Positions 1 to 8,613 of a stretch of 15,623 nt of DNA are shown piece after piece. The notes below the pieces were generated by a model. That model ran no database searches and had not been told where the DNA came from. It saw only the letters and a list, made by a program, of their open reading frames with translations. The stretch comes from Chloroflexota bacterium. GTDB taxonomy: Bacteria; Chloroflexota; Anaerolineae; B4-G1; SLSP01. The position numbers and the translations under genes are program-made. Where the stretch lies: positions 1 to 15,623 of the forward strand of contig JAKJAE010000029.1 of NCBI GenBank assembly GCA_022707665.1. The letters are read 5' to 3'. How positions within the stretch are numbered: position 1 is the first letter of the stretch; each line of letters begins with the position of its first letter.

Positions 1-3526
<3,526 letters not shown>

Positions 3527-3550
3527 TGCCTATATGCCAAAGGGGTTCTG

Positions 3551-3578
3551 TTGACCTTTAGAGGCTTTGTGGTAGAAT
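3551..3578 (+). promoter_or_regulatory. Predicted sigma70-type promoter for the rpsL cluster
   Basis: TTGACC (3551-3556) is followed after 16 bases by TAGAAT (3573-3578), with an extended -10 TG at 3570-3571 one base upstream of the -10. Both hexamers match the housekeeping consensus at five of six positions. The position between rpoB and rpsL is where a str promoter is expected if rpoC is absent. Transcription should begin near 3585. No other gap in the window has a comparable pair. Confidence 0.75.
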
Positions 3579-3597
3579 CACCCTTCGCATGAGGGTG
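3579..3597 (+). promoter_or_regulatory. Inverted repeat over the predicted start site
   Basis: CACCCT (3579-3584) and AGGGTG (3592-3597) form a perfect 6-base inverted repeat around a 7-base centre, immediately after the -10 hexamer. The predicted start (about 3585) falls in the centre, so this fits an operator better than an RNA hairpin. No known regulator was recognised. Confidence 0.4.
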
Positions 3598-3664
3598 GCA
3601 GCTACATCTCCTGCCATCGACAATGGGGTAGGGCGGCTGGGAAGCCGACACGGTCGACATCAGG

Positions 3665-3688
3665 AGGCCATCGCAGCATAGATGGCCT
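3665..3688 (+). promoter_or_regulatory. Leader hairpin upstream of rpsL
   Basis: AGGCCATC (3665-3672) pairs perfectly with GATGGCCT (3681-3688) over an 8-base loop, extendable by a G-U pair. The following TCTTC is only weakly U-rich, so this may be an attenuator or a protein-binding leader element rather than an efficient terminator. It lies inside the predicted rpsL leader. Confidence 0.5.
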
Positions 3689-3725
3689 TCTTCAGTGAGA
3701 AAATGGAAGGGCTAGGTTCTGCCGG

Positions 3726-3745
3726 CGTCTGGTTTGAGCCAGGCG
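3726..3745 (+). promoter_or_regulatory. Hairpin just upstream of the rpsL ribosome binding site
   Basis: CGTCTGG (3726-3732) pairs with CCAGGCG (3739-3745), including one G-U pair, over a 6-base loop. It ends 11 bases before AGGAGG at 3757, close enough to influence ribosome access. A role is inferred only from position. Confidence 0.35.
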
Positions 3746-3767
3746 GAATCTGAATCAGGAGGAGAAA

Positions 3768-4202
3768 GTGCCGACGATTAACCAATTGCTGCGAAAGGGA
3801 CGTAAGCCGAAGGTGCGGAAGGCGAAATCACCTGCGCTGGCCTTCAACGTCAACACGAAGCGGGGTAACAGGCGTGAGCGCGTCAGCGGTGGAAACCCCA
3901 TGAAGCGTGGCGTCTGCACGATCGTGCGTACCACGACGCCTAAGAAGCCTAACTCGGCGCTCCGCAAGACCGCTCGTGTGCGGTTGTCGAATCGAATCGA
4001 GGTAACGGCTTATATCCCGGGCGAGGGCCATAACCTGCAGGAGCACTCGGTGGTGCTGGTGCGTGGTGGGCGTGTGAGGGATCTCCCTGGCGTTCGCTAT
4101 CACATTGTGCGTGGCGCTTTGGACTCTGCTGGGGTGAATGGCCGCCATCAGCAGCGCTCCAAATACGGCACCAAGCACGCGGCTGAGAAGAGCGGGAAGT
4201 AA
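3768..4202 (+). CDS. rpsL: 30S ribosomal protein S12
   Basis: S12 sits at the decoding centre of the 30S subunit and contacts EF-Tu and EF-G. The GTG start at 3768 is chosen because AGGAGG at 3757-3762 is well spaced and [13 protein letters not shown] is the family N-terminus. The protein has 144 residues against 124 in E. coli. Part of the excess is an insertion of about 16 residues (roughly 25-43) between SPAL and KRGVC, at the site where Bacillus S12 also has one. [13 protein letters not shown] (55-67) keeps both lysines equivalent to K43/K44. [13 protein letters not shown] is canonical except for Arg104 (AGG, 4077-4079), which aligns with E. coli Lys88, where K88R is a classical streptomycin-resistance change. 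The gene heads the str cluster behind the 3551 promoter. Confidence 0.98.
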
Positions 4203-4278: not shown

Positions 4279-4749
4279 ATGTCAAGACGAAATCGTCCAG
4301 CTAGGCGACAGGTTGAGCCCGATATCCGCTACGACAGCGTGCCACTGCAGAAGTTCATCAATCGGATGATGCGTGGGGGCAAGAAGAGTGTGGCTCAGCG
4401 GATCATGTACGATGCGTTGGATCAGGCTGAGGCGCGTGCGAACAAGCCGGCGATCGAGGTCTTCAGCGACGCGCTGGCGAATGTCCTCCCTGCTGTCGAG
4501 GTGAAGCCGCGACGTGTCGGTGGGGCTACGTATCAGATCCCGGTAGAGGTGCCTGAGTATCGGCAATTGTCTCTGGCTATCCGTTGGATGTTGGCCGCGG
4601 CGCGGAACCGCTCGGGCCGTAATATGGCCTCGAAGCTGGCGGCTGAGTTAGTGGATGCGGCGAACGGTGCCGGATCGGCAGTCAAGCGGCGCGAGGATAC
4701 ATTGAAGATGGCGGAAGCCAACCGGGCGTTTGCCCATCTGCGCTGGTAG
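4279..4749 (+). CDS. rpsG: 30S ribosomal protein S7
   Basis: S7 is a primary 16S rRNA-binding protein of the 30S head, at the E-site side, and nucleates head assembly. The ATG at 4279 gives the family N-terminus MSRRNRPARR and a normal 156 residues. RRVGGATYQIPVEV (about 75-88), AIRWML and the C-terminal KMAEANRAFAHLRW are diagnostic. The SD sequence is weak: GAGG at 4263-4266 lies 12 bases from the start, so translation may depend on coupling or on the spacer hairpin at 4212-4248. It lies 76 bases after rpsL and 131 bases before fusA. Confidence 0.98.
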   Translation: MSRRNRPARRQVEPDIRYDSVPLQKFINRMMRGGKKSVAQRIMYDALDQAEARANKPAIEVFSDALANVLPAVEVKPRRVGGATYQIPVEVPEYRQLSLAIRWMLAAARNRSGRNMASKLAAELVDAANGAGSAVKRREDTLKMAEANRAFAHLRW

Positions 4750-4880: not shown

Positions 4881-6959
4881 ATGTCCGAGGTACATTCACT
4901 AGAGAATATACGCAACATCGGGATCATTGCCCACATCGATGCGGGCAAGACCACGACGACGGAGCGCATCCTGTTCTACACCGGGCGCACCTATCGTCTT
5001 GGTAATGTGGATGAGGGCACTACCGTTACCGATTGGATGCTCCAGGAGAAGGAGCGCGGGATCACGATTATGTCCGCTGCAGTCACGTGTTACTGGCGCC
5101 ACTGCCAGATCAACATCGTGGATACACCTGGACATATCGACTTTACCGCGGAAGTTCAGCGCAGTCTTCGGGTTCTTGACGGCGGCATCGTCGTGTTTGA
5201 TGGTACGGCTGGTGTCGAGCCGCAGTCGGAGACTGTCTGGCGACAGGCTCAGGAATTTCATGTGCCACTGATCGCCTTTGTGAACAAGATGGACAAGCTG
5301 GGTGCGAGCTTCCCTTACGCCGTCGGCACGATTCGCGAGCGGCTGAAGGCAAACCCGGTGCCCATCCAGTGGCCGATCGGCGCAGAGTCGGACTTCCGAG
5401 GCGTTGTCGATCTGATCGAGTGGCGCGCTGTCTACTGGCAGGATGAGTTGGGACAGGTGCCTGAGTTCGGGCCGGTTCATGTGGAGCTTGAGGAAGAGGC
5501 CAGTGCGGCCCGTGATGCGATGGTCGAGGCTGTCGTCGAGACGGATGATGAGTTGATGGTCCGGTATCTTGATGACGAGGAGATCTCGGGCGCCGATTTG
5601 CGCTGGGCACTGCGAAAGGCTGTGGTCTCCGGCAAGGTTCAGCCGGTGTTGTGTGGTTCGTCACTGCGGAACAAGGGGGTGCAGTTGCTCCTGGATGCAG
5701 TGGTTGATTTCTTGCCTTCTCCGCTGGATGTCCCCCCGATAACGGGGTGGAATCCCAAAAAAGAGCGGACTGAGGAGCGGCCTGCAGATGCGGATGCTCC
5801 GCTGGCAGCCTTGATCTTTAAAATAGCTACAGATCCTTATGCGGGACGACTCGCATACTTCCGCATCTATTCCGGTACTATGACCCGCGGTTCTGTCTAC
5901 CTGAACTCTGGTAAGGCGATCCGCGAGCGTGTCACCAAGCTGCTCAGGATGTTTGCCGACCGCCGTGAGGAGGTCGATGAACTCCGCGCAGGCGACATCG
6001 GTGCCACGGTGGGGCTGAAAAACACCGTGACCGGCGATACGCTATCGGCGATGCACGCACCGATTGTACTGGAGCCGATACACTTCCCGGAGCCGGTTAT
6101 CTCCGTCGCTGTAGAGCCCAAAACGGTGGCTGATCAAGACCACCTGGTTGAGGCTTTGGCGCGGTTGGCCGAAGAGGACCCAACGTTCCGGGTGCAGGTT
6201 GATGAAGGTACTGGACAGACGCTTTTGTGGGGGATGGGAGAGCTGCACCTTGAGATTCTCGTAGACCGAATGCTCCGCGAGTTTAGGGTGGAAGCGAATG
6301 TCGGAAGGCCGCGCGTTGCGTATAAGGAGACCGTCACGACTACCGGGCGCGCCGAAGTTGTCTTTGATCGGCCGCTCGCCGGTAAGCCCCAATTCGCTCG
6401 GGTAGTACTCGAAGTCAGTCCTACCGGGCCAGGGGAATCGTCCGGGTTCATCAATCAACTGCGTCCGCAGGACCTGGCAGCTCCGTTCATTGAGTCTGTC
6501 AGAGCTGGGGCGCTTGAGTCGTTGGATAGCGGTGTGGTTGCCGGGTATCCGATGGTTGGGGTCTCGATCCGGCTGGTCGACGCGACGGCTGATGTGCTTC
6601 TTTCCACAGAGGTGGCGTTCAAAGCGGCAGCGTCGCAAGCCTTGCATCAGGCAGTAGAAGCGGCGACGCCGGTGTTGCTGGAGCCAACGATGGACGTCGA
6701 GGTTGTGGTACCGGAAGGGTTCGTAGGGGAGGTTCTGGGAGACCTGAACTCTCGAGATGCCGATATCCGGTTGATGGAGCCCAGGGCTGGTGGTAGCCAA
6801 GTAGTCCGGGCATTTGTGAAACTGGCACGGATGTTTGGGTACGCCACCGAGTTGCGGAGCTTGACGCAAGGACGGGGGACATTCACAATGGAGTTCCACC
6901 ATTACGACCCGGTGGACTCCCGGCAGTTGGATGCGATCGTGTACGGCTACGGAGCCTGA
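4881..6959 (+). CDS. fusA: Elongation factor G with divergent domain IV
   Basis: EF-G is the GTPase that drives tRNA-mRNA translocation and, with ribosome recycling factor, ribosome splitting. It has 692 residues, normal length. The ATG at 4881 gives the family N-terminus; its SD is only CGGGG at 4868-4872. GTPase motifs are intact: AHIDAGKT (17-24), RGIT (59-62), DTPGH (81-85), NKMD (135-138), and [10 protein letters not shown] later. [18 protein letters not shown] marks domain III, and [15 protein letters not shown] marks domain V. Domain IV is unusual. The loop normally resembling QTGGRGQYGH reads [10 protein letters not shown] (about 498-507). The GGVIPxEYIPAV segment is replaced. The tip histidine (Thermus H573) aligns with Asp571, and the RRG after GDLN is RDA (625-627). 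Unlike tuf it uses many CGG, CGA, AGG and AGA codons. It may be the main EF-G or a specialised paralogue. Confidence 0.93.
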
Positions 6960-6993: not shown

Positions 6994-7054
6994 ATAATCA
7001 AACACGACAGAGACCGTGGAATCAATCTGTAAGTAGAATAAGGAGAGGCAAGCA

Positions 7055-8275
7055 ATGGCTAAAGAGGTTTTCGAGCGTACTAAGCCACATGTGAACGTTG
7101 GGACTATTGGTCACATCGATCACGGTAAGACGACGTTGACCGCGGCAATCACGCGGACCTTGTCCACCAAGGGATGGGCAGAGTACAAGGCCTATGACGA
7201 GGTCGCCAAGGCCGATGCGAAGATGTTCCGTCGCGATGCGACCAAGATCCTCACCGTGGCTATCTCGCACGTTGAGTATGAGACCGAGAACCGGCACTAC
7301 GCGCACGTTGACTGCCCGGGTCACCGTGACTACATCAAGAACATGATCACGGGTGCTGCTCAGATGGACGGCGCAATCCTGGTCGTTTCCGCAGTCGACG
7401 GCCCGATGCCTCAGACGCGTGAGCACATCCTGCTGGCGAAGCAGGTTGAGGTCCCGGCTGTGGTCGTGTTCCTTAACAAGGTTGACCTCATGGACGATCC
7501 TGAGCTGCTGGAGCTTGTCGAGCTCGAGATCCGTGAGTTGCTCAACTCCTATCAGTTCCCCGGCGATGAGACCCCCGTGGTCCATGGTTCTGCTCTGCAG
7601 GCCCTTTCGTGCCAGAGCAATGATCCGAATGATCCGGCCTATGCGTCGATCTGGGAGCTGATGCGCGTCGTGGACGAGTACATCCCCACGCCAGTTCGTG
7701 ATGAGGATCTGCCCTTCTTGATGCCCATCGAGGACGTCTTCTCGATCAAGGGCCGTGGCACTGTGGTGACGGGGCGTGTTGACCGCGGTACGCTCAAGCC
7801 CAATACCGAGGTCGAGCTGGTTGGCGATATGTACGAGAAGCCACGCCGCACGGTGGTGACATCGATGGAGATGTTCCACAAGACGCTGCCGATCGTTCAG
7901 GCTGGTGACAACGCTGGTTTGCTGCTGCGCGGTGTCGGCAAGGAAGAGGTCGGTCGTGGTGTCGTCGTTGCGGCTCCTGGCTCGATTCAGGCCCGCAAGA
8001 AGTTCGAGGCCAACGTCTATATCCTGCGCAAGGATGAGGGCGGACGTCATAAGCCTTTCTTCACCGGCTACAAGCCGCAGTTCTATATCAACACGATGGA
8101 CATCACCGGCACCGTCTCCCTGCCCGAGGGCGTTGAGATGGTGATGCCCGGCGATAACACGACGATGACCGTCGACCTGATGAGCCCGGTTGCGCTTGAG
8201 TCTGGTCACCGCTTCGCGATTCGCGAGGGTGGTCTGACCGTCGGTGCTGGCGTCATCACCAAGATCATTGCCTAG
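7055..8275 (+). CDS. tuf: Elongation factor Tu with atypical switch I
   Basis: EF-Tu carries aminoacyl-tRNA to the ribosomal A site as a GTP ternary complex. It has 406 residues with the normal three domains. The ATG at 7055 follows AAGGAG (7040-7045). GHIDHGKT (19-26), DCPGH (86-90) and NKVD (141-144) are present, as are [10 protein letters not shown] and [11 protein letters not shown]. Switch I is abnormal. The usual PEEKARGITINT segment is replaced by residues 50-70, with about five extra residues, and KILT (64-67) stands where RGIT belongs; only the magnesium-binding Thr67 is kept. His90 is followed by Arg91 (PGHRDY, as in archaeal and eukaryotic EF1A) instead of Ala. Further unusual positions are Ala287 (DNAG), Ala307 (AAPGS) and Leu394 (REGGL). 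Arginine codons are almost all CGT or CGC, a sign of very high expression. No frameshift restores the normal motif. Confidence 0.95.
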
Positions 8276-8304
8276 TTGCAGGCAACCCCACAACAGGGTG
8301 GTTT

Positions 8305-8613
8305 ATGGCTAAACAACGCATTCGCATTCGGCTGAAGGGATACGATCACCGCATTCTCGACGAGTCTGCTCGTCGGATTGTCGAGGCTGCGGAGCGCACG
8401 GGTGCGCATGTTGCGGGTCCCGTTCCGCTACCTACCCGGGTCGAACGCTATACCGTTCGCCGCTCGACGTACATTGACAAGGATAGCCACGAGCACTTCG
8501 AGATTCGTACGCACAAGCGCCTGATCGATATCCAGGATCCGGATTCGAAGACGATCGACACGCTGATGCGGCTCAATATGCCGGCGGGCGTCGACATCGA
8601 GATTAAGCTGTAG
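8305..8613 (+). CDS. rpsJ: 30S ribosomal protein S10
   Basis: S10 belongs to the 30S head and also acts as NusE in antitermination complexes with NusB. The protein has 102 residues, normal length. The ATG at 8305 gives [19 protein letters not shown], the family N-terminus, followed by [28 protein letters not shown] split around the rRNA-binding loop and the typical ending [15 protein letters not shown]. The SD is weak (AGGG at 8295-8298). Only 29 bases separate it from tuf, so it belongs to the str transcription unit. A 191-base structured gap separates it from rplC, the gene it normally abuts. Confidence 0.98.

Follow-up and report, generated by a model that had tools for sequence, protein, structure and literature searches.

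A second widespread switch I sequence in the only EF-Tu type found in an order of Chloroflexota, probably acquired by recombination

Results

The tuf locus and its neighbourhood

The window, that is, the whole 15,623-nucleotide stretch of Chloroflexota DNA analysed here, carries a tuf gene in the ordinary str/S10 gene order (rpsL, rpsG, fusA, tuf, rpsJ, rplC), its neighbours having been assigned by eye. The features used below are as follows; row counts refer to aligned EF-Tu sequences, sorted by switch I into the canonical RGIT type, the long or KILT type of the window protein and a short type described below.

3768-4202, plus strand: rpsL, str operon context, by eye from the sequence
4279-4749, plus strand: rpsG, str operon context, by eye from the sequence
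4881-6959, plus strand: fusA, EF-G with an ERGITI switch I, by eye and by a PF00009 match
7055-8275, plus strand: tuf, EF-Tu of 406 amino acids, KILT type, from the open frame, a curated profile and Pfam domains
7109-7135, plus strand: P-loop at residues 19-27 (GHIDHGKTT), which includes the conserved Asp22
7196-7258, plus strand: replaced switch I core, residues 48-68 (21 residues), five shorter in canonical Chloroflexota EF-Tu
7244-7255, plus strand: residues 64-67, KILT where canonical EF-Tu has RGIT; Thr67 is the expected Mg ligand
7322-7324, plus strand: His90, the catalytic His of DCPGH, kept; the next residue is Arg91, usually Ala
7487-7489, plus strand: Leu145, following the guanine motif NKVD; this position is Met in 38 of 63 RGIT rows and in 1 of 81 KILT or short rows
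7607-7609, plus strand: Ser185, following SAL of the G5 motif; this position is Glu in 48 of 63 RGIT rows and in 9 of 81 KILT or short rows
8305-8613, plus strand: rpsJ, start of the S10 operon, by eye from the sequence

Upstream, rpoB is followed directly by rpsL without an intervening rpoC (3526-3768). A 423-codon open frame runs antisense to tuf (7022-8293, minus strand); an antisense tuf frame from a planctomycete, used as the query, matched 22 of 30 genomes, which presumably reflects conservation of the protein together with codon bias. PADLOC gave no match.

The window protein scored 636.1 bits against the EF-Tu equivalog profile NCBIfam TIGR00485 (cut-off 522.4), and the three Pfam domains (GTP_EFTU, D2 and D3) were all above their cut-offs. 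The curated cut-offs for EF-1A, SelB, CysN and IF2-gamma were not reached, the best score being 230.8 against 502 for EF-1A and the rest lower. Asp22, Lys25, Thr67, His90 and Asn141-Asp144 were invariant among 28 aligned relatives, as was the SA of SAL, and the P-loop Asp was present in 144 of 144 aligned rows. The effective codon number of tuf (40.0) was the lowest of the 11 window genes tested. The initial annotation had considered decay unlikely, and the open frame, the invariant motifs and the strong codon bias bear this out and rule out a pseudogene.

The genome from which the window comes contains 12 places of the GTP_EFTU family, of which the protein search recognised as EF-Tu only the window gene itself (C221:7055); its five other matches had at most 40% identity, and a fragment on contig C19 appeared EF-G-like by eye. 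So the second tuf with RGIT that had been envisaged was not found by protein search in this assembly, which is 73% complete. Because of this completeness, the argument for a sole EF-Tu type is carried by the order-wide result given below, which includes a genome (G192) that is 100% complete.

The replaced switch I segment

The initial annotation had described an EF-Tu without RGIT, and this can be read directly in the 406-residue open frame, in which KILT occupies residues 64-67 and the Mg-binding Thr67 is retained. At this position E. coli EF-Tu has Arg58, Gly59, Ile60 and Thr61; the Gly of RGIT is thus Ile in KILT, and the Thr stays. The extra residues, first put at about five, number exactly five by alignment to canonical EF-Tu: the stretch has 29 residues in the window protein against 24 in a canonical Chloroflexota EF-Tu (L201), and the same length difference was found in the three alignments inspected. 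A search of solved structures with the long-type segment as the query matched 10 chains, the stretch being five residues shorter in each (three were inspected aligned), and no structure with the long-type segment was found by this query.

Ile21, originally listed as a further peculiarity, turned out to be ordinary variation, being present in 16 of 63 sequences of the RGIT type, 16 of 72 of the long type and 7 of 9 of the short type; these counts rule it out as a marker of the switch I type. Arg91 (7325-7327), which follows CPGH in 4 of 63 RGIT, 8 of 72 long-type and none of 9 short-type rows, is ruled out as a type marker in the same way. Arg after CPGH is a feature of EF-1A.

The same segment throughout the order

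All 120 best homologs of the window protein, which where named belong to Anaerolineae, Anaerolineales, Thermoflexia or Chloroflexi/Chloroflexota, carried KILT and none carried RGIT. The corresponding DNA pattern was present in 46 of the 48 genomes of the window's order, covering 28 of 28 genera. An assembly or base error, which had been named as a possible cause of the unusual segment, is ruled out by these two results. The protein search found EF-Tu in the same 46 genomes, with the pattern inside the EF-Tu place each time, and the two genomes without the pattern gave no EF-Tu match either. There was one EF-Tu place per genome, except in G307, where it lay in two pieces, and in G323, which has one full EF-Tu plus a further piece that breaks off beyond switch I where its contig ends.

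All 45 order genomes typed from sequence had the long type only, and no RGIT copy was seen among the 46 genomes with tuf. The proposal of a specialised EF-Tu was therefore not supported, since the KILT form is the only EF-Tu type seen in 46 of 46 of these genomes. A specialised second copy of the actEF-Tu or EF-Tu3 kind was likewise rejected, no common EF-Tu having been seen beside it in the 46 genomes. As the only EF-Tu type found, the product of the window tuf would be expected to deliver aminoacyl-tRNA to the ribosome.

Spread of the long and short types across bacteria

Among 301 sampled genomes of the phylum Chloroflexota, the DNA pattern was found in 11 and was confirmed as EF-Tu by translation in four (G000, G192, G011 and G122); the remaining pattern matches could not be assigned to EF-Tu. 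When named genomes were scanned with a longer degenerate DNA pattern (DxxKILT...HxEY), at least 119 stretches were obtained. All 80 of those listed were EF-Tu with the motif, and 36 of the 39 further stretches were recognised as long-type EF-Tu. Uniqueness of the segment must accordingly be given up, since many public EF-Tu sequences share it, nearly unchanged in sequence, in at least 17 named phyla, as judged from NCBI record names or from the group searched. These include Planctomycetota, Gemmatimonadota, Nitrospirota, Kiritimatiellota, Lentisphaerota, Verrucomicrobiota, Acidobacteriota, Spirochaetota, Pseudomonadota and Chloroflexota; that Bacillota, Actinomycetota and Bacteroidota lacked the long type among the matches listed is only a hint. 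Public KILT-type records, where named, are simply called elongation factor Tu.

In the 24 long-type genomes searched whole, every full-length EF-Tu was of the KILT type. Two side observations concern additional sequences. Genome G364, whose other EF-Tu is of the KILT type, has an extra EF-Tu-like paralog (L416, contig C26) with 40% identity to the query and CPGN for CPGH, located on the minus strand between fusA and rpsJ; G368 has two additional fragments.

A short switch I form, KGGxVRDx[ST]K[TIV][VL]T, was found mainly in planctomycetes and in a few others. This form or near variants of it were seen at loci L341, L344-L347, L352, L357, L102, L019 and L336.

In a census of 196 genomes with a recognisable EF-Tu locus, 102 had RGIT only, 81 the long type only and 10 the short type only; one had the long type together with RGIT, and two had the long type together with a copy lacking the switch I Thr. 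Thus 93 of the 196 genomes had no RGIT EF-Tu among the loci examined. The census was drawn around the matches, so that it gives no estimate of frequency, and it counts only the loci examined, 18 loci from L052 on being unrecognised.

Genomes with two kinds of tuf

The genome holding both types (G490, loci L365 and L382) belongs to Acidobacteriota. Its KILT tuf is followed by rpsJ, and its RGIT tuf lies between tRNA genes and tRNA-Trp/secE/nusG, the classical place of tufB. The two gene bodies agree by 63% in residues 111-212, by 75% in 213-310 and by 81% in 311-406. Another Acidobacteriota genome, G506, has a KILT tuf, whose protein is close to that of G490 (88-97%, depending on the region, with the most conserved part excluded), and a tufB copy (L385) in which the switch I Thr is lost (AAGVPLN). 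The same combination was found in the Chloroflexota genome G011 (8% contamination), in which the tufB copy (L029) reads HGVGINI. Both Thr-less copies sit beside tRNA-Trp, secE and nusG, the same place as in G490. These genomes, only three in number and none of them closed, fit a path by which a new allele becomes established in one tuf copy while the other copy is released.

Trees and regional identities

Proteins shorter than 385 residues or containing X were dropped from the trees and row counts, as were near-copies above 86.5% identity. The two Thr-less rows were left out of all trees and L357 out of the regional ones; EF-Tu with P-loop KTS, among them most alphaproteobacterial RGIT loci and the short-type G122, are in no tree.

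In the whole-protein tree calculated without switch I (144 EF-Tu), the KILT rows stood mostly beside RGIT rows of their own phylum, and the switch I type changed at least 16 times, five of the changes being forced by well supported (starred) branches; L148 entered this count wrongly as short type, which is corrected in the row counts given above. For domains II and III (143 rows, quick tree), a single KILT clade was rejected (dlnL 211, p-AU 0.000953). Here the type required 23 changes and the phylum 19, the latter counted over 12 groups with the 14 rows in no group left out. KILT and RGIT rows formed one group in Chloroflexota (support 93) and likewise in Alphaproteobacteria (96, starred); Spirochaetota (9 changes) and some small phyla were not coherent.

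For residues 73-212 of the G domain, a first quick AU test did not reject the KILT clade (p 0.641), but the free tree used there was inadequate: constraining Alphaproteobacteria to stay together gave a tree better by 134 log units. A fuller search (LG+G4), in which the free and phylum searches were stopped before convergence, gave log-likelihoods of about -13105 for the free tree, -13264 for the KILT clade and -13168 with Alphaproteobacteria, Gammaproteobacteria and Chloroflexota held as clades. The KILT clade was now rejected (dlnL 158, p-AU 0.0147), and the three phylum-level clades were not (p-AU 0.14).

The tree of the segment itself (residues 22-72) required one change of type and 41 of phylum. 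With 51 columns, few supported forks and a long-branch warning, this tree does not prove descent of the segment from one source. Since the body trees reject a KILT clade and the segment tree has a single change of type, the history of the switch I allele differs from that of the remaining protein, and switch I appears to have evolved apart from the other parts of the tuf gene.

Regional identities agree with this in Chloroflexota, where KILT and RGIT proteins are 29% identical in residues 43-72 and 76% in 111-212, against 75% and 78%, respectively, for RGIT proteins among themselves. Compared with KILT proteins of other phyla, the Chloroflexota KILT proteins have 57% identity in 43-72 and 61% in 111-212 (mean best match 84% and 70%). 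In domain II, they are 65% identical to RGIT, against 75% among RGIT proteins, and 62% identical to other KILT phyla. The picture is different in residues 111-212 of Alphaproteobacteria (KILT to RGIT 65%, RGIT among themselves 85%) and Gammaproteobacteria (63% and 87%); because this region is so divergent there, a short cassette does not fit every lineage; in these two groups the incoming piece may have been larger, or the domain may have adapted. Covariation of positions outside the segment with its type (Met145 and Glu185), suggested by the row counts, was not significant in an underpowered phylogeny-aware comparison, which had only three independent pairs on supported branches.

Discussion

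Origin of the second allele

We consider it probable, from sequence comparison, that the window tuf is the sole housekeeping EF-Tu gene (tufA of the str operon) of its uncultured Chloroflexota order and carries a second widespread switch I allele acquired by recombination. The canonical PEE[KR]xRGIT and the alternative RDx[ST]K[IVT][LV]T would then be two bacterial alleles that replace each other, the window having the long (+5) form of the latter. The allele would have been taken up by resident tuf genes in the form of a short cassette of about residues 43-72, with the conserved P-loop and HVEY-CPGH flanks serving as homology arms. Entry probably took place into one of two tuf copies, the other then being free to diverge or to be lost.

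Three other origins were weighed. An ancient paralogy, in which two ancestral tuf genes differed in switch I, conversion homogenised their bodies, selection kept the switches apart and many losses followed, would account for the two tuf loci in many genomes examined, for bodies of both types that group largely by phylum, and for the single genome whose two classical loci carry different types, as well as the two with KILT and a decayed-looking tufB. It is nevertheless unlikely, since both types occur together in just one of the census genomes and conversion would need to have spared the same segment in many lineages for a very long time; in G490, moreover, the divergence of the two bodies implies that conversion does not keep them together.

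Somewhat more doubtful still is a repeated independent origin, by which RDxTKILT would be a second optimum reached separately and constraint would then produce look-alikes. The many type changes on the whole-protein tree, some of them forced, could be read in this way, as could the short and long forms, which have RDx[ST]K..T in common and are unlike in length. Against it, some 20 residues including a five-residue lengthening agree across phyla, the mean best identity in residues 43-72 is 81-98% over six groups, and a 16-residue sub-type is found in Chloroflexota, Caldifarciminota and Acidobacteriota, with a starred set of 13 rows in the segment tree.

Transfer of a whole KILT tuf between phyla is very improbable: the gammaproteobacterial KILT protein L111 is indeed nearer to L083 of Gemmatimonadota than to the gammaproteobacterial RGIT protein L288 in residues 111-212 (78% against 68%) and 311-406 (88% against 80%), but in 213-310 it is nearer to L288 (81%) than to L083 (77%), domains II and III unite both types within Chloroflexota and within Alphaproteobacteria, and the window tuf stands in its ordinary gene order. 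For the lineage of the window such a transfer is disfavoured; the grouping of Gammaproteobacteria has a support of 66.

A selective cause for the change can be imagined. Lit, a protease of the e14 prophage, is reported to cleave EF-Tu at the bond joining Gly59 to Ile60 (PMC3014915). This cut site lies inside RGIT, so that KILT is without such a bond. As a speculation to which we give little weight, switch I could be a horizontally exchanged cassette with two alleles, RGIT being a target, for instance of Lit-type proteases, and lineages under this pressure having repeatedly swapped the uncuttable RDxTKILT into one tuf copy and lost the other.

How the segment may work

The invariance of Thr67, Asp22, His90, NKVD and the SA of SAL makes ordinary GTP binding and hydrolysis by the KILT EF-Tu likely. 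The form would work as an ordinary EF-Tu in which Thr67 closes on Mg-GTP and Lys64 stands for Arg58. The initial annotation's idea that switch I is ordered in another manner is plausible, because the Gly of RGIT is replaced: the longer and more basic loop might adopt a different arrangement above the nucleotide and next to the tRNA acceptor stem, so that accommodation or nucleotide kinetics would be altered, not abolished.

The Gly of RGIT is also, as we assume, the switch I Gly of the monovalent cation site, and with Ile in its place this site would be built by the main chain or lost. An earlier survey of translational GTPases describes the P-loop Asp and a Gly of switch I as the residues that hold the cation (PMC4342817). 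Simulations have Arg58 of switch I passing the tRNA acceptor stem on release (PMC10495418); since this residue is Lys here and the loop is longer and more basic, accommodation could plausibly be affected.

Significance and comparison with known systems

Models of decoding, of GTP hydrolysis and of EF-Tu inhibitors rest on one switch I. A second conserved switch I, present as the sole EF-Tu type in many bacteria, would show by comparison which contacts are really needed. Moreover, if the segment moved on its own, this would be a striking exchange below the level of the gene, across phyla, in a most conserved protein.

No description of the variant was found in the open-access literature, searched by titles and the starts of abstracts and with subscription literature outside the scope; a prior description is possible. 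In the accessible parts of three further sources, EF-Tu is named solely as a marker for trees and in the title of a cited work (PMC3444138), switch I and sequence diversity are studied without mention of the variant (PMC13351119), and tuf is swapped between species, the ten extant species used there not being among the 80 listed motif records (PMC5574714).

With canonical EF-Tu (TIGR00485; E. coli, Thermus), the window protein has in common the three domains, the P-loop, DCPGH, NKxD, SAL, the Mg-binding Thr and the place in the str operon. It differs from it in a switch I that is five residues longer, with KILT for RGIT and Ile for Gly, and it passes the curated cut-off without RGIT, a motif conserved in the family as usually described.

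The EF-Tu of Brachyspira pilosicoli, Hydrocarboniphaga effusa, Fontimonas thermophila, Hyphomicrobium and Nitrospira have the RRDxTKILT core and the loop length of the window protein. Other KILT-type EF-Tu mostly read AKASESQG where the window protein reads AKADAKMF, and Ala follows CPGH in 63 of 72 long-type rows, in contrast to Arg in the window protein. The short-type EF-Tu of planctomycetes shares the RDx[ST]K..T core and the Thr with the window; its loop is about three residues shorter and usually ends in KTVT.

Finally, actEF-Tu and Streptomyces EF-Tu3 are, like the window protein, EF-Tu distinct from the common form, and actEF-Tu is the only clearly distinct one named in the accessible sections of the translational GTPase survey; by the description given there, these proteins are duplicates that stand beside a common EF-Tu and are thereby set apart from the window form, which is the only type found (PMC4342817).
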